A stretch of 64,000 nucleotides of DNA from Flavobacterium sp. FEMGT703F (GTDB taxonomy: Bacteria > Bacteroidota > Bacteroidia > Flavobacteriales > Flavobacteriaceae): NCBI GenBank assembly GCA_002786385.1, contig PGCN01000012.1:124001-188000 (forward strand). Reading direction: 5' to 3'. The position numbers were made by a program, and so were the translations under genes. How positions within the stretch are numbered: the stretch's first letter is position 1; every line of letters starts with the position of its first letter. The notes beneath the pieces were generated by a model. It saw nothing but the letters and a program-made list of their open reading frames with translations. It did not search any database and was not told the origin of the DNA. Shown here in pieces: positions 24,117 to 62,110 of this stretch.

Positions 24117-24187
24117 CACGGGCGGGAGGATTCGAACCACCATCAACGGTTTTGGAGACCGCTATTCTACCCTTGAACTACGCCCGT
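24117..24187 (-). tRNA. tRNA-Trp (CCA)
   Basis: Reading on the minus strand, the 71-base cloverleaf starts ACGGGCG and closes with CGCCCGT plus discriminator G. The anticodon loop CTCCAAA (anticodon CCA at 24155-24153) and the TTCGAAT T-loop are present. The 3' CCA is not encoded. It lies between tuf and secE, as in many bacteria, only a few bases after the tuf terminator-like hairpin. Confidence 0.95.
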
Positions 24188-24193
24188 TTCATT

Positions 24194-24226
24194 AAAAACC
24201 AGTGTCGCCTTGACTGACGACACTGG
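24194..24226 (-). terminator. Terminator-like hairpin after tuf
   Basis: Perfect 9-bp stem CCAGTGTCG/CGACACTGG (24199-24207 with 24218-24226), followed on the minus strand by five T and then, seven bases on, by the tRNA-Trp 5' end. It may end most tuf transcripts while letting some pass into tRNA-Trp-secE-nusG. I see no separate promoter in the short gap. Confidence 0.85.
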
Positions 24227-24245
24227 TAATTTATTTACTAAATAA

Positions 24246-25433
24246 TTAGTCTAAAATTTCAGTTACCTGACCAGCACCAACTGTTCTACCACCTTCACGG
24301 ATAGCGAAACGTAAACCTACGTTTAATGCAATTGGGCTTAACAAGCTTACTTCAATAGTTAAGTTATCACCTGGCATTACCATCTCTACACCTGCTGGTA
24401 AAGAAATAACTCCTGTTACGTCAGTTGTACGTACGTAGAACTGTGGACGGTAGTTATTGTGGAATGGCGTGTGACGACCACCTTCTTCTTTTTTCAAGAT
24501 ATAAACCTCAGCTTTGAATTTAGCGTGTGGTTTTACTGAACCTGGTTTACAAATAACCATACCTCTTTTGATATCAGCTTTATCGATACCTCTTAACAAA
24601 AGACCTACGTTATCTCCAGCTTCACCTCTGTCAAGGATTTTACGGAACATCTCAACTCCAGTGATTGTAGAAGTCAATTTGTCAGCTCCCATACCGATAA
24701 TTTCTACCGGATCTCCAGTATTAGCAACTCCAGTTTCGATACGACCTGTAGCAACAGTTCCACGACCTGTAATTGTAAATACGTCCTCAACAGGCATCAA
24801 GAATGGTTTAGCATTGTCACGTACCGGCTCTTCGATCCAGTTGTCAACAGCTTCCATCAATTCGATGATTTTTGGTACCCAGTTAGGGTCATTGTTCAAT
24901 CCACCTAAAGCAGAACCTTGAACTACAGGACCATTGTCTCCATCATATTCATAGAAAGACAATAAGTCTCTGATTTCCATTTCTACTAATTCTAATAATT
25001 CCGGATCGTCAACCATGTCCACTTTGTTCATGAATACAACGATTCTAGGAATACCTACCTGACGTCCTAAAAGGATGTGCTCACGAGTTTGCGGCATTGG
25101 TCCGTCAGTTGCAGCTACTACTAAGATAGCACCGTCCATTTGAGCAGCACCAGTAACCATGTTCTTAACGTAATCCGCGTGACCTGGACAGTCAACGTGA
25201 GCGTAGTGACGGTTAGCAGTTTCGTACTCAACGTGTGAAGTGTTGATAGTAATACCTCTTTCTTTTTCTTCCGGAGCGTTATCAATTTGATCAAATGATT
25301 TCGCTTGACAGTAACCTGCATCAGACAATACTTTAGTAATTGCTGCAGTTAAAGTAGTTTTTCCGTGGTCTACGTGTCCAATTGTACCTATGTTAAGGTG
25401 TGGCTTGGTACGACTAAAATTTTCTTTTGCCAT
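24246..25433 (-). CDS. tuf: Elongation factor Tu
   Basis: A 395-residue EF-Tu, the GTPase that delivers aminoacyl-tRNA to the ribosome. The G motifs are visible: [10 protein letters not shown] (G1), a switch I region with [14 protein letters not shown] (G3), NKVD (G4) and GSAL (G5). Domains II and III follow with [11 protein letters not shown] and [16 protein letters not shown]. Length and sequence are normal. Codon use is strongly biased, as expected for a highly expressed gene. It is preceded by three tRNA genes, followed by a strong hairpin and tRNA-Trp, and its leader is A-rich without Shine-Dalgarno sequence. Confidence 0.98.
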
Positions 25434-25488
25434 TTTACTTAATTTTTAATCTTAGTTTATATATTAGTGTTCAAATTTTACAATTTTG

Positions 25489-25560
25489 AGCCAACTACGG
25501 GATTTGAACCCGTGACCTCTTCCTTACCAAGGAAGCACTCTACCCCTGAGCTAAGTCGGC
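25489..25560 (-). tRNA. tRNA-Thr (GGT)
   Basis: A 72-base cloverleaf on the minus strand, starting GCCGACT and ending AGTTGGC plus discriminator T. Anticodon stem CTTCC/GGAAG with loop TTGGTAA gives anticodon GGT. The T-loop GGTTCAAATCC is typical. It is the last tRNA before tuf. Confidence 0.95.
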
Positions 25561-25775
25561 TTGTACCAGCTTAGAAGTTAAACCTCAGAATTCAGAAACT
25601 TCCAAACCCTTATTGCTAAACTCCAATCATTTTGAATCCTCAACACATGGTTGAATTTCCAATTTTAGAATACCACCTTTTAAGTGATAATCCTGATAAG
25701 GTGATGCCTTATCCAAGCTTTAAATCTGAATTTACTCGAAAGCAAAATCTCGGATAAATTCCTATTCAAAGTTAG
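25561..25775. other. 215-base gap between two tRNA genes
   Basis: In many bacteria a tRNA-Gly gene sits here between tRNA-Tyr and tRNA-Thr. I see no cloverleaf in this gap, only A+T-rich sequence with a small hairpin GATAAGG/CCTTATC (25695-25713). Confidence 0.55.
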
Positions 25776-25857
25776 TGGGGAGAGCAGGATTCGAACCTGC
25801 GAAGATGTAATCAGCGGATTTACAGTCCGCCCTCGTTGGCCGCTTGAGTATCTCCCC
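25776..25857 (-). tRNA. tRNA-Tyr (GTA)
   Basis: An 82-base type II tRNA on the minus strand with a long variable arm. The acceptor stem is GGGGAGA/TCTCCCC with discriminator A. The anticodon loop CTGTAAA gives anticodon GTA. Confidence 0.95.
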
Positions 25858-25891
25858 TAACCTTTTTATTTTCAATACTATAAAAGAACCG

Positions 25892-25965
25892 AGCCGATGG
25901 AGGGACTCGAACCCACGACCTGCTGATTACAAATCAGCTGCTCTAGCCAACTGAGCTACACCGGC
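25892..25965 (-). tRNA. tRNA-Thr (TGT)
   Basis: A 74-base cloverleaf on the minus strand, starting GCCGGTG and closing with CATCGGC plus discriminator T. Anticodon stem GCTGA/TCAGC with loop TTTGTAA gives anticodon TGT. It is the first gene of the tRNA-tuf unit. Confidence 0.95.
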
Positions 25966-27670: not shown

Positions 27671-27787
27671 GGGCGTGCCGGTGCCTACAGCCATCATCTT
27701 GAATAGAAACCATTCACACAGCCACCGTCGGGCTGTACGTTGCAATCTTTTACTCCGTAAAAGGATTTCCTCTTCCATCCCTCACGC
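27671..27787 (-). ncRNA. Dispersed structured RNA-like element, copy D
   Basis: One of five related intergenic elements. On the minus strand it opens with GCGTGAGGGATGG and ends CACGCCC, with closing stem GCGTG/CACGC, hairpin GGAT/ATCC and central hairpin TTTTAC/GTAAAA. The core AAAAGATTGCAACG and AGCCCGAC are shared with the copy at 59155-59260. It lies between the acyl-CoA dehydrogenase gene and rpsU, upstream of the rpsU promoter. It has no T-run, so it is not a terminator. The Rfam Flavo-1 motif is a candidate identity that I could not check. Confidence 0.6.
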
Positions 27788-27812
27788 GAAAGTAAGGAAC
27801 AAGTGAAAAGAC

Positions 27813-33342: not shown

Positions 33343-34704
33343 CTATTTAATAGAACTAATAATATCGTGTTTGGTAATAATATGGTGTTTTCCGTTGCCT
33401 AAATCGACCAATACCGCTTGGTTGTCTTTATTGATGAGTTTAGAAATCTCTTCAACCGGCGCGTTGGCATTGACAATCGGATACGGTTTACCCATGATTT
33501 CTTTGATAGGCTTATCGGCTATATTTTTGTCTTCGATATAGCTACGGAACAAATCGGTTTCGTCTATGCTACCCACAAAACCGGTGGTATCTATTACCGG
33601 AATTTGAGAGATGTTGTATTTTTTCAAACGTTCGATGGCGTGTGATACTAATTCTTCCGTACGTACAATGACCAATGGTTTGTCTTTGTGGTCTTTGATT
33701 ACGTCTTCTGCTTTGGTGATTTCTTCTTCTAAGAAACCTCTTTCGCGCATCCAGTCGTCGTTGAACATTTTCCCCACATAACGGCTTCCGCTATCGTGGA
33801 AAAGCACTACTACAACATCATTCGGACCGAAATGCTCTTTCAATTGGTGCAAACCTTTGACGCAAGCACCGGCTGAATTCCCAACAAAAATCCCTTCTTC
33901 CAAAGCAATTTTACGAGTATAAACTGCGGCGTCTTTATCGGTTACTTTGGTAAACCCATCGATAACAGAGAAGTCAACGTTTTTAGGCAAGATGTCTTCC
34001 CCGATGCCTTCAGTGATATAAGAGTAGATTTCGTTTTCATCGAAGATACCTGTTTCGTGGTATTTTTTGAATACTGAACCGTAGGTATCAATGCCCCAAA
34101 CTTTCACATTCGGGTTTTGCTCTTTTAAATATTTTCCGATGCCGGAAATGGTTCCGCCGGTTCCAACGCCTACAACAAAATGAGTTACTTTACCATCGGT
34201 TTGTTCCCAAATCTCAGGACCGGTTTGTTGGTAATGTGCTAGTGCATTGCTAGGGTTATCGTATTGGTTTACATACCAAGAATTAGGAATTTCGGTGCTC
34301 AATCTTTTCGAAACAGAATAGTACGAACGCGGGTCAGTTGGTTCTACATCGGTTGGACAAACGATTACTTTAGCGCCAACGGCACGAAGGATGTCCATTT
34401 TTTCTTTAGATTGTTTGTCGGTGATTACAAAAATACATTTGTATCCTTTTACAATTGCGGCTAAGGCTAAGCCCATACCGGTATTTCCGGAAGTTCCTTC
34501 GATAATGGTTCCGCCCGGTTTTAGTCGGCCATCAGCCTCGGCATCTTCTACCATTTTAAGCGCCATGCGGTCTTTGGTAGAGTTTCCGGGATTGAAGGTT
34601 TCTACTTTGGCCAAAACCAAGGCGTCGATGCCTTTCACCACTTTGTTCAATTTTACTAAAGGCGTGTGGCCAATAGTGCCTAGTATATTTTCTGCGTAGT
34701 TCAT
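33343..34704 (-). CDS. Cystathionine beta-synthase-type PLP enzyme with CBS pair
   Basis: A 453-residue pyridoxal-phosphate enzyme of the cysteine synthase/cystathionine beta-synthase family. The PLP lysine is in NPGNSTKDRMAL (about residue 43), the phosphate-binding loop is EGTSGNTGMGLA, and the second glycine-rich loop is GVGTGGTISGIG. The C-terminal quarter holds two CBS domains (VIVRTEELVSHAIERL and DEEISKLINK-like sequence), as in eukaryotic and Bacteroidota CBS, where they may bind an adenosyl ligand. The likely reaction is condensation of serine and homocysteine, but cysteine synthase activity cannot be excluded. It starts at an ATG at 34704, and structured element A lies upstream. Confidence 0.9.
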   Translation of the reverse strand: MNYAENILGTIGHTPLVKLNKVVKGIDALVLAKVETFNPGNSTKDRMALKMVEDAEADGRLKPGGTIIEGTSGNTGMGLALAAIVKGYKCIFVITDKQSKEKMDILRAVGAKVIVCPTDVEPTDPRSYYSVSKRLSTEIPNSWYVNQYDNPSNALAHYQQTGPEIWEQTDGKVTHFVVGVGTGGTISGIGKYLKEQNPNVKVWGIDTYGSVFKKYHETGIFDENEIYSYITEGIGEDILPKNVDFSVIDGFTKVTDKDAAVYTRKIALEEGIFVGNSAGACVKGLHQLKEHFGPNDVVVVLFHDSGSRYVGKMFNDDWMRERGFLEEEITKAEDVIKDHKDKPLVIVRTEELVSHAIERLKKYNISQIPVIDTTGFVGSIDETDLFRSYIEDKNIADKPIKEIMGKPYPIVNANAPVEEISKLINKDNQAVLVDLGNGKHHIITKHDIISSIK

Positions 34705-34802
34705 TTTTGAGTAGCTGAGCAGCTGAGCTTTAAATTTAGGTTACAAAGATATTGATAAAAAGAAGGTTTGCAAGTTTGAAGCACCTTAATTCGAAATCGT
34801 TT

Positions 34803-34883
34803 GCGTGCGGGATGGGAACGGCATCCTTTTGTTTCGTTGGTAAACGAGACAAAAGATACAGTGGACAGCGCGGTAACACGCCC
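34803..34883 (+). ncRNA. Dispersed structured RNA-like element, copy A
   Basis: Plus-strand copy of the five-member family, 81 bases. The closing stem is GCGTG (34803-34807) with CACGC (34877-34881), followed by hairpin GGATG/CATCC and central hairpin TTTTGTTTCG/CGAGACAAAA, and the 3' end is CACGCCC followed by an A-run. It lies 8 bases beyond the porin gene stop, antisense to the flanking minus-strand genes, so any transcript would need its own promoter. No T-run follows. Confidence 0.58.
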
Positions 34884-34891
34884 AAAAAAAA

Positions 34892-36859
34892 TTACTGGAA
34901 GAAGTTCCATACTAAACCGAAGCGAATCATAAAATCGCGGTACGGATAGTTGGGCGCGGTATAGAAAGTATTCCCGGTCATGCGAGAGTTCAAATGCTCT
35001 ACTTTAAAGAAAATACGCGTTTGACGGATTCGGGCGTTGACAAAGAAATCGACCATAGGAAACTCCCCTATTTCTCGGGTATTTTGCACGAAGGCTTCGG
35101 CCAAGATCGGATTGTAATCGTTGGCGTAATATTTTGTAAAATAATTGAAGGTAAAACCGGTTTGCAGGTAAAGCGCTTTTTTGAAAAAATAATCGGTGTA
35201 ATACAAAGAGTTTCGGGTTACGATTTGCGGCACATTGAGCACATCGTCTTCTTGGTCTACTTGTTGGTATAAAACGGTGTTATCGAGCGCCAATTTCCAC
35301 CATTTGAATTCGCGGCTGACTTTAACCGACAAATAATTGATGGTTTTATCGTATTGTTTAGGGGTAACAATTTGCTGTTGCGGATCAGTAGCATCATTGC
35401 TAAAGAACAAGTAATCGTTAAGCGAACTGATTTGCATGGCCGCATTGAACCATTGGGTTTTGGCCATCACTTCCAGATTGTTGATTTTTTCGTTTTTGAA
35501 ATCATAGTACCAATTGTAACCGATGAAACTGCTTTGGTGCAAGTTGTAGAGATGGTCAGGTATTTTATTGAGCATTTGGTATTGGAACTGCAGCTCGTTT
35601 TTGGCGTTGATTTGGTATTTGAGTTGGGCGTTGAAGTTGGTAAGCGATTGATTGGAAATGGAATTAGAATAGGTAAAAACGCCATTCCATTTGTTTTTGC
35701 GGTATTCGTATTGACCGCCAACGGTGTTGATTTCATCGCTTAAAGAACCGGGAATAATACCGGAATCCAAGATCAGTACTTTATCATAAAAGTAGTTGAA
35801 TCGGTAATCTTCGGCGAAGAATTGGAACTTCCCTAATAAGGCATTCTCGTAGATGGCGCCGACTTTATTGTGCATGCGGTTGTAGCGACTTTGATCGTTG
35901 ATACCACCGGAAACATAGGCTTCGCCAAAATGCAGTATTTGCGTATTCCCTACTGTTGAAGCCAGTGTTTTTTGATTGTATTCAAAAAACTTAGTTTCAT
36001 AGGTAAATTGATGTGTCAGGTACAAATTATTATTGCCTTTTTTGGTGTTGATTCGGAAATTATGGTCGAAGAAATACCTTTTTCCTTTCATGAATGACTT
36101 GGCATCTTTGAGGTATACCTCCAATCGGGCACGGTTTTGGAATGCAGCATCTTCGCTTTCAAAATCCTCGAGCGTTGTAATTCCACCGTTTTCACCGTTT
36201 GAAAAATCCTGACCGGTGAAATGAAAATTAAGGTAATATCTTTTATTGAGTGTATTGTAGCTGGTAGTGAAGCGGAAGTTTCCGGTACTCGACAATTGGT
36301 TGATGTATTTCCCTAACGAACGCAAGCCTTTAAAAGCGACTGACATATTGAAGCGTTCTGAGGTATTTACAGTAATGAATGCGTCTACAGATTGTCCTTG
36401 CTCCATTACGGTTTTGAAGTACAACTCGGTTATCGGCGTGGCAACAGAGTAATACTTAATATCGTCTATTTGCAGGTAATTAAAATGTTTTCCAGAATGC
36501 CCCAATTCAGGGTAAGCCGCAAATTTTTTTAATCCGTAATCTAAAACGGTATAGGTTTGACCTTCATTGGCAAAAGGCAACAAACCGAAAATATCTTTAC
36601 GCAGGTAATTGTATTCGTACTCCTTTTTGATAGTTAACGAAGTATCAACGTAGGTAGTGTCTTTTTGCAGGCTTATAATTCTGTAAAAATCATAGGGTGC
36701 CTTTTTTACTTCCTTAGTGGCGGAGGTATCTTTAACAGAAGTATTTCTGGAGGTTGGTTTAACATTTTGGTCCAGTGTACCGAGCTTAGCACTTCTGTCT
36801 CTTTGGGAAGAAACAGATTGGATTGAAAGTAAAAAAACTATAAATAAAAGATAGCGCAT
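34892..36859 (-). CDS. Putative outer-membrane porin of Bacteroidota
   Basis: A 655-residue outer-membrane beta-barrel protein of the putative-porin family (Pfam DUF/Porin_10-type, by recollection). It has a signal peptide (MRYLLFIVFLLSIQSVSSQ), a soluble N-terminal stretch with APYDFYRIISLQKDTTYVDTS (quoted from about residue 50), then alternating amphipathic strands ending in an aromatic-terminated strand (RFGLVWNFF). The ATG at 36859 is chosen over the upstream one at 36910 because the promoter at 36877-36917 lies between them. The substrate is unknown. Terminal element A sits right behind the stop codon. Confidence 0.85.
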   Translation of the reverse strand: MRYLLFIVFLLSIQSVSSQRDRSAKLGTLDQNVKPTSRNTSVKDTSATKEVKKAPYDFYRIISLQKDTTYVDTSLTIKKEYEYNYLRKDIFGLLPFANEGQTYTVLDYGLKKFAAYPELGHSGKHFNYLQIDDIKYYSVATPITELYFKTVMEQGQSVDAFITVNTSERFNMSVAFKGLRSLGKYINQLSSTGNFRFTTSYNTLNKRYYLNFHFTGQDFSNGENGGITTLEDFESEDAAFQNRARLEVYLKDAKSFMKGKRYFFDHNFRINTKKGNNNLYLTHQFTYETKFFEYNQKTLASTVGNTQILHFGEAYVSGGINDQSRYNRMHNKVGAIYENALLGKFQFFAEDYRFNYFYDKVLILDSGIIPGSLSDEINTVGGQYEYRKNKWNGVFTYSNSISNQSLTNFNAQLKYQINAKNELQFQYQMLNKIPDHLYNLHQSSFIGYNWYYDFKNEKINNLEVMAKTQWFNAAMQISSLNDYLFFSNDATDPQQQIVTPKQYDKTINYLSVKVSREFKWWKLALDNTVLYQQVDQEDDVLNVPQIVTRNSLYYTDYFFKKALYLQTGFTFNYFTKYYANDYNPILAEAFVQNTREIGEFPMVDFFVNARIRQTRIFFKVEHLNSRMTGNTFYTAPNYPYRDFMIRFGLVWNFFQ

Positions 36860-45911: not shown

Positions 45912-45969
45912 TTTTTATTTGGAAAACGCAAAGTTACAAAGTTTACAAGTTAACTCGACGTTAATCTTT

Positions 45970-46098
45970 TAGCCCCGATTGCAGTGAAAATCCTTTTGTT
46001 TGAAGCTAAGTCCTTCGATTTTGCAAAGGGTGACCAAACAAAAGATTGAAACGAAAAGCGGGAAAACGGACTCCCGAATAAGCCCGAGCGCTTCGCTC
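45970..46098 (+). ncRNA. Dispersed structured RNA-like element, copy C
   Basis: Plus-strand copy, variant form starting TAGCCCCGATTGCAG. It keeps hairpin GATT/AATC, the ATCCTTTT core, and a central helix TTTTGTTTG/CAAACAAAA closing a longer loop, then AAAAGATTGAAACG and a terminal hairpin GAGCG/CGCTC (46086-46098). It sits between the divergent lipB and lysS genes, just upstream of the lysS promoter. Confidence 0.52.
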
Positions 46099-59154: not shown

Positions 59155-59260
59155 GGGCGTTACCACAAGGGTCGGGCTTTCCGTTGCAATCTTTTTAAAG
59201 AGTATTTGTCTTCTACGAAGACCAATCCTTAAAAAGGATTTCCACTCCAATCCCTAACGC
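59155..59260 (-). ncRNA. Dispersed structured RNA-like element, copy E
   Basis: Minus-strand copy, 106 bases. The closing stem is GCGTTA/TAACGC, a base-pair-preserving variant of the GCGTG/CACGC stem in copies A and D. Hairpin GGATT/AATCC and central hairpin CTTTTTAA/TTAAAAAG are kept, and the core AAAAAGATTGCAACGGAAAG with AGCCCGACCCTTGTGG is the most canonical. It lies between the DUF5522 and urocanase genes, opposite to their direction. Confidence 0.62.
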
Positions 59261-59308
59261 TTCAGGCAAAAACAACAAACAACTTATAACATCCAACTCA
59301 AAACCAAA

Positions 59309-61970: not shown

Positions 61971-62110
61971 TGCCCTAGCCCGGATGGAAACGGCATCCTT
62001 TTACAGCTGTTAGGTTTAAAAAACCTGACAGCTGTAAAAGATATAGTGGACAGCCGGAAACGAGCTCCTAAAGAGCGAACTGGCGAAGCAAAAAGCTCCT
62101 TCCATCCGTT
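61971..62110 (+). ncRNA. Dispersed structured RNA-like element, copy B (expanded)
   Basis: Plus-strand copy, longest of the five, beginning GCCCTAGCCCGG. It has the hairpin GGATG/CATCC, a long central hairpin TTTTACAGCTGT...ACAGCTGTAAAA extended by AGGTTT/AAACCT, then AAAAGATATAGTGGACAGC as in copy A. CGGATGGA (61982-61988 region) can also pair over eight bases with TCCATCCG near the 3' end (62101-62108), an alternative to the local hairpin. It fills the gap between the DUF4136 terminator and the aromatic amino acid hydroxylase gene. Confidence 0.58.

Follow-up and report, generated by a model that had tools for sequence, protein, structure and literature searches.

Flavo-1 elements of Flavobacterium extend to a three-way junction and may act as DNA at the borders of transcription units

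Flavo-1 has been listed as an RNA family since 2010 without a function. Our findings confirm this known family in a Flavobacterium genome and extend its fold past the Rfam model to a three-way junction with a covarying closing helix (P1) and a variable third arm. By computation, the fold belongs to one defined strand, the copies are old residents at conserved sites, promoter boxes pointing into them are no more frequent than chance, and the structure is kept equally well whether or not a sense gene lies upstream. We tentatively favor the reading, to which we give somewhat less than an even chance, that Flavo-1 acts as a DNA-level element at transcription-unit borders and not as a small RNA, riboswitch, or terminator. 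The results make the choice between DNA and RNA open to testing, and the fuller element described here, with its closing helix, third arm, and two classes, is the one with which to test it.

In the window, meaning the whole 64,000-nucleotide stretch analyzed, the first-pass annotation had described a dispersed family of five elements, suggested Flavo-1 (RF01705) as a possible name, and proposed a search with the Rfam model. That search recovered the elements in all five gaps at 45 to 75 bits, over the gathering score of 42, as well as matches throughout the genome, so the suggested name was right. The motifs quoted for the minus strand of 27671-27787 (GCGTGAGGGATGG, ATCCTTTTAC, GTAAAAGATTGCAACG, AGCCCGAC, and CACGCCC) are all present. 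The family is indeed dispersed, but five is not its size: the 2.98-Mb genome holds 71 matches at E<=0.001, of which 51 exceed the cut-off. Gene context was studied in 52 of the 71, comprising 50 of those 51 and 2 below the cut-off, with 19 left out. Under stricter filters, by which weak matches are lost, Flavo-1 occurs in 186 of 199 sampled congeners (13 without a match) and in 44 of 296 genomes of a phylum sample with completeness of at least 90%, 36 of them over the cut-off; in the congener sample the matches counted in each genome were capped. Given matches in so much of the genus, a function at the borders of genes, if it exists, would be shared widely. Copy numbers are patchy among congeners, ranging from 0 to 88 in 24 of them. 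Rfam assigns the type "Gene; sRNA," and the table of Weinberg et al. 2010 (PMC2864571) rates Flavo-1 "y" as RNA and "n" as cis-regulatory. In its remarks on Flavo-1, a transcriptome study of F. psychrophilum (PMC9723704) found no real clue to function in hits that lay sense or antisense of transcribed regions and, in many cases, outside such regions. Beyond a few Flavo-1 papers, wider searching found no other title or abstract start naming the family.

Simple patterns divide the 52 copies into class I (n = 46; TAGCCC..GCNGGA) and class II (n = 6; GCGT..ACGC). Copy D, a class II three-way junction, occupies 27671-27788 on the minus strand, with its Flavo-1 core at 27722-27792 (50.0 bits). Its P1, outside the Rfam model, spans 27673-27787 and joins GCGTG (27787-27783) to CACGC (27677-27673); its third arm, P3, spans 27679-27727 and joins CGGTG (27727-27723) to CACCG (27683-27679), as read from the sequence and a fold with DNA parameters. 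A comparable stem was seen by eye at the same site in four relatives (L098, L102, L097, and L088). Folded with DNA parameters, the copy D strand gives the junction of P1, P2, and P3 (z = -2.54) and its complement reaches z = -0.64; RNA parameters keep P1, change the interior, and do not return the three-way junction (z = -1.24). The class II copy at site B (34798-34883, plus strand; match 34798-34879, 45.2 bits) has the core and a closing GCGTG/CACGC without the third arm. On one side of it is the stop codon of 34892-36859(-) and on the other the -7 box belonging to 33343-34704(-). At site C, a class I copy (45967-46069, plus strand, 75.2 bits) lies between genes that both point away. The remaining two are a class II copy at 59157-59272 on the minus strand (match 59166-59272, 62.0 bits), closed by GCGTTA..TAACGC, and a class I copy at 61973-62064 on the plus strand (70.4 bits), with a 3' module ending in GCTCC downstream. 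Elsewhere in the window, four tRNA genes are clustered on the minus strand at 24117-25965.

The closing helix is kept while its sequence changes. Among 94 class I copies with a 5' TA start, taken from this genome and its relatives, AGC is accompanied by a downstream GCT[CT]C in 79, and all 6 copies starting with AAC have GTT as the partner; 4 AGC copies met GTT first, and neither motif was present in another 4 AGC copies and one AGA copy. GCT[CT]C occurs within 60 nt in 81 of the 94, compared with 3.5 in shuffles, and GTT[CT]C in 11, compared with 5.7. By eye, P1 of class II is kept in all 17 distinct copies listed, in five different sequences (GCGTG/CACGC, GCGTT/AACGC, GCATG/CATGC, GCGCG/CGCGC, and GTGTG/CACAC); a further copy, in L129, has A opposite C as its last P1 pair. 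Several class II copies carry a third arm of very variable length 3' of the core. Another palindrome (CCCTTCGACTGCGCTCAGGGTGAC type, in either orientation) is nested in the apical loops of 12 of the 52 own-genome copies, for example at G000:C2:37430-37541, C9:48124-48227, and C18:119217-119321. A subfamily of about 145 nt (L170-L175, from G010 and G165) has a conserved apical arm of its own (GAGCGACC..GGAAGCTC) in copies that have diverged.

The compensatory stem changes that had been claimed from the window are borne out by 117 distinct aligned rows (4 of them reverse-strand hits), in which 97.1% of cells hold standard pairs compared with 70.1% after shuffling, and 19 of 20 pairs have changes on both sides, a count reached in 0 of 500 shuffles; the alignment was fitted to the model structure and so leans towards it, and 39 aligned copies had served to build that model. 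In a set of 113 rows, reported as the 117 minus the 4 reverse-strand rows and 2 duplicates, the cells comprise 2023 Watson-Crick, 27 G.T, 7 A.C, and 57 other combinations. The excess of G.T over A.C (binomial p = 0.0008) points towards one strand as the folding strand. Core mismatches are conserved, with A.G in 111, G.A in 105, and A.G in 103 of the 113; the loop of G.A and A.G surrounds a free middle position, and the second loop is mostly GGA/GNA or GGC/ANA. These A.G and G.A pairs are probably sheared. The upper hairpin GGATG/CATCC proposed from the window was rejected as a kept pairing: in the 96 pattern-bearing copies of the 113, its closing pair is Watson-Crick in just 44, and in 93 the base at this position partners the far 3' strand instead.

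In the sister species G055 and G063, 20 loci taken from each yielded 12 orthologous pairs. Of 240 structure pairs, 185 are the same, 11 have changed on both sides and remain paired, 1 has changed on one side and remains paired, 9 are unpaired in one species, and 34 are gapped. The 11 double changes fall in 3 loci, of which one shows an inverted apical loop and another differs by 51 nt in apical length. At L123:984-1077 and L151:1069-1175 the apical loop is inverted between near-identical flanks. Such clustering is equally compatible with template switching, conversion between copies, and selection. If covariation were mainly mutational, with template switching during replication (a mechanism of the kind described in PMC8794818) holding the arms complementary, then helix covariation would say little about function. 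The ratio of 11 double-sided to 1 single-sided paired change, the inverted apical loop, taken as a sign of the process, and the rarity of G.T intermediates (27 of 2114 cells) speak for this explanation, which is compatible with the other readings considered here; we nevertheless think it rather unlikely, as template switching should erase the mismatches that the core has kept, one sister or the other has lost the pairing at 9 positions, and conversion between copies could explain the clustering too.

Syntenic loci were compared in 20 relatives for sites A (copy D), B, and C and in 19 loci for sites F2 and F3 of L027. Over these five sites, orientation is the same at 37 of 40 occupied sites, or 37 of 41 if an extra copy in L088 is counted. 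Site B (34798+) is occupied in 12 of the 20 relatives, always in the same orientation, by class I in some species and class II in others; a diverged copy in L091 and a decayed remnant in L090 were recognized by eye. Site C (45967+) has 10 copies in the same orientation and 1 in the opposite one among loci of which L098, L099, and L101 do not reach or fully span the site; the additional L088 copy there is also in the opposite orientation. At site A, 4 copies have the same and 2 the opposite orientation among the 20, some of whose loci reach a few hundred bases past the neighboring gene. Sites F2 and F3 are occupied in 7 and 4 of 19 loci, respectively, all in the same orientation, with part of the F2-F3 stretch missing from L121 and L122. 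In a midpoint-rooted tree of four proteins, genomes with an occupied site are found on distant branches (the branch of G058 is inflated, one of its four matches being just 35% identical), so we read these as old sites with losses. The Flavo-1-poor genomes G024, G048, and G018 gave no model match at site B (L163-L169), where the intergenic spacer is short by eye.

This history bears on whether Flavo-1 is a REP/MITE-like, nonautonomous hairpin that some enzyme moved as single-stranded DNA and that is now largely immobile, its intergenic placement due to the loss of other insertions. Dispersed intergenic copies in patchy numbers, the palindrome nested in 12 of 52 apical loops, a copy 321 bp away from where the single Y1_Tnp gene of this genome matches the domain, and a weak association with Y1_Tnp (present in 138 of 186 genomes with Flavo-1 and 6 of 13 without; p = 0.049) would fit such an origin. 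We consider it unlikely, because the sharing of sites and orientation by distant branches of the genus tree argues against it, as does the rarity of Flavo-1 near Y1_Tnp: 1 of 36 loci, with flanks mostly of 1.5 kb. Among the 23 of these loci at E<=0.001, two come from genomes without Flavo-1, and 22 have no copy in their flanks; a smaller, earlier sample gave 1 of 7. Furthermore, the genome with 88 copies (G004) has no Y1_Tnp at E<=0.001, the Y1_Tnp gene of our genome has flanking palindromes of its own, two complete genomes show no dependence of strand on genome position (p = 0.93 and 0.67, from 142 of 154 hits after exclusion of weaker ones), the six copies of one subfamily are diverged, and the single candidate examined for an empty site was a 520-nt replacement and not a clean one. 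At that locus, one sister species has about 520 nt with an apparent open frame (L136:3542-4063) and the other has the element (L146:1014-1152). The surroundings of the only Y1_Tnp match (L020:2250-3000; G000:C4, ~265861-266205) resemble a RAYT gene with REP elements, having palindromes of the AATCCC(G/C)NTAGGGATT kind on both sides. Three narrower proposals were rejected: mobilization in the RAYT/REP manner (35 of 36 Y1_Tnp loci without Flavo-1, a Y1_Tnp gene with its own palindromes, and a weak correlation), a replication-strand bias (none in the two complete genomes), and recent spread of the 145-nt subfamily (six diverged copies, two with flanks common across species).

No copy of the 52 lies inside a gene called by the heuristic caller made for this analysis, and orientation shows no preference relative to genes (-E- 15, +E+ 14, +E- 11, -E+ 10, edge 2). 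Promoters were sought as exact matches to the Flavobacterium sigma-A -7 box TAnnTTTG (PMC9723704) within 150 nt, with mononucleotide shuffles giving the chance level, a scan that would miss readthrough, weak promoters, and those of other sigma factors. Boxes pointing into the element are at chance level on either strand, in 6 of 52 own copies (4.8 expected) and 6 (4.6 expected), and in 8 of 61 relatives' copies (9.0) and 10 (8.5). The outward direction, by contrast, is enriched about 4- to 6-fold, at 14 (3.7 expected) and 11 (2.7) for own copies and 19 (4.5) and 28 (4.5) for relatives' copies, which indicates that the scan has power; because the copies share ancestry, and some of the 61 occupy the same orthologous site, these counts are not independent. 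The 49 intervals between an element and a gene comprise 24 in sense and 25 in antisense. In 20 of the 49 a box separates the element from the gene (1.7 expected), and in 8 a box is on the far side (3.0 expected); the others have no exact box. Where there is a box, then, the element mostly precedes the promoter.

Half of the copies with both neighbors known (25 of 50) have no sense upstream gene, and a box on the right strand accompanies 2 of these 25 (1.66 expected). Their Watson-Crick pairs number 454 of 473 (96.0%), compared with 457 of 475 (96.2%) in the 25 with such a gene (p = 0.87); bit scores likewise do not differ (p = 0.39), and the three core mismatches are kept in 23, 22, and 23 of 25 compared with 25, 24, and 23 of 25. 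This two-group comparison is the only one tested statistically. The ten copies in divergent gaps are the most intact, with 184 of 185 pairs Watson-Crick. To be set against this, -E- copies score lowest (median 56.6 bits), keep the fewest Watson-Crick pairs (270 of 288), and contribute 10 of the 15 G.T cells of this genome. The two-group result is evidence that upkeep of the fold is independent of sense reading by the upstream gene from known promoters.

These results weigh on the view under which Rfam files Flavo-1, that of a functional RNA acting as a small RNA or, within readthrough transcripts, as a 3'-end or processing element. The first-pass annotation had gone from covariation to a conserved RNA structure; the covariation stands, and the step to RNA is not secured, with inward boxes at chance and copies lacking a sense gene equally well kept. 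Some 70 diverged copies would also be unusual for a small RNA. Strong covariation, a conserved purine-rich core that folds well with RNA energies, tolerance of G.U above A.C, and the classification as RNA by both Rfam (sRNA) and Weinberg et al. 2010 ("y"; PMC2864571) are what this view has in its favor, and on balance we judge it quite unlikely. A bidirectional terminator or a riboswitch-like 5' leader is highly improbable. Many copies start or end about 25 nt or less from a stop codon, and convergent gaps hold 11 of 50 copies where 3.8 to 4.0 are expected (p = 0.0004 and 0.001), a comparison biased by the elements themselves, which lengthen the gaps they occupy. By eye, however, none of the 52 listed copies ends in a T-run, and an intrinsic terminator would have a T-run after its hairpin and a position after a gene. 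The earlier statement that these are not terminators fits with the 10 of 50 copies in divergent gaps, since a terminator between two genes pointing outward has nothing to stop. A leader would sit in a 5' untranslated region, after the promoter and in sense, and the excess of boxes on the gene side of the element, together with nearly equal sense and antisense counts, does not agree with this.

The absence of excess inward boxes and the equal upkeep of copies lacking a sense upstream gene suggest that the selected molecule may be DNA. We envisage about 70 long-resident intergenic elements in this genome, at borders between transcription units, in which one defined strand folds into the three-way junction, whose core combines an A.G mismatch with stacked internal loops (G.A/N.N/A.G). 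That strand might become single stranded or extruded, for example when negative supercoiling builds up behind outward-facing promoters or when the DNA is replicated or repaired; a putative structure-specific protein might then bind the purine-rich core as a mark of border or topology. No protein partner of Flavo-1 was found. Energy-based discrimination between RNA and DNA gave a mixed outcome. The element strand has a better fold than its complement in 108 of 113 copies with DNA energies and in 65 of 113 with RNA energies; prediction of the core is slightly better with RNA energies (mean 0.689 compared with 0.601 for DNA, DNA being better in 47 of 113). The G.T excess over A.C is expected of RNA as well and hence counts against a DNA-only reading. 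The composite picture, in which a family catalogued as RNA is a single-stranded DNA three-way-junction hairpin with a G.A-rich core, as old as the genus at transcription-unit borders, bound by a putative protein and with arms kept partly by template switching, seems to us possible but somewhat doubtful. If the acting molecule is DNA, covariation alone is no proof of RNA, which would bear on other orphan "RNA" families.

The window family shares core helices and internal loops with the Rfam Flavo-1 model, whose gathering score its five copies exceed. It differs in that the 76-position model has unpaired ends, to which the closing helix and variable third arm are added here, in its second class, GCGT(G/T)A..(T/C)ACGC, and in a placement that may argue against the transcript implied by an sRNA gene type. 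REP and BIME elements go with RAYT transposases, and RAYT-mobilized REP elements carry a 5' GTAG-type guide tetranucleotide. Flavo-1 resembles them in being dispersed, intergenic, hairpin forming, and present in either orientation, but it is absent beside Y1_Tnp in 35 of 36 loci and conserved in position across the genus sample. ERIC and BOX are likewise many-copy, structured intergenic repeats, from whose usual descriptions Flavo-1 is set apart by its one-strand, non-Watson-Crick core. The STAXI motif (PMC2864571) is another product of comparative genomics for which the authors, in their account of it, considered that single-stranded DNA might be the relevant form instead of RNA; its pseudoknot repeats, unlike Flavo-1, sit near DNA-handling genes, and RNA was the reading they favored.
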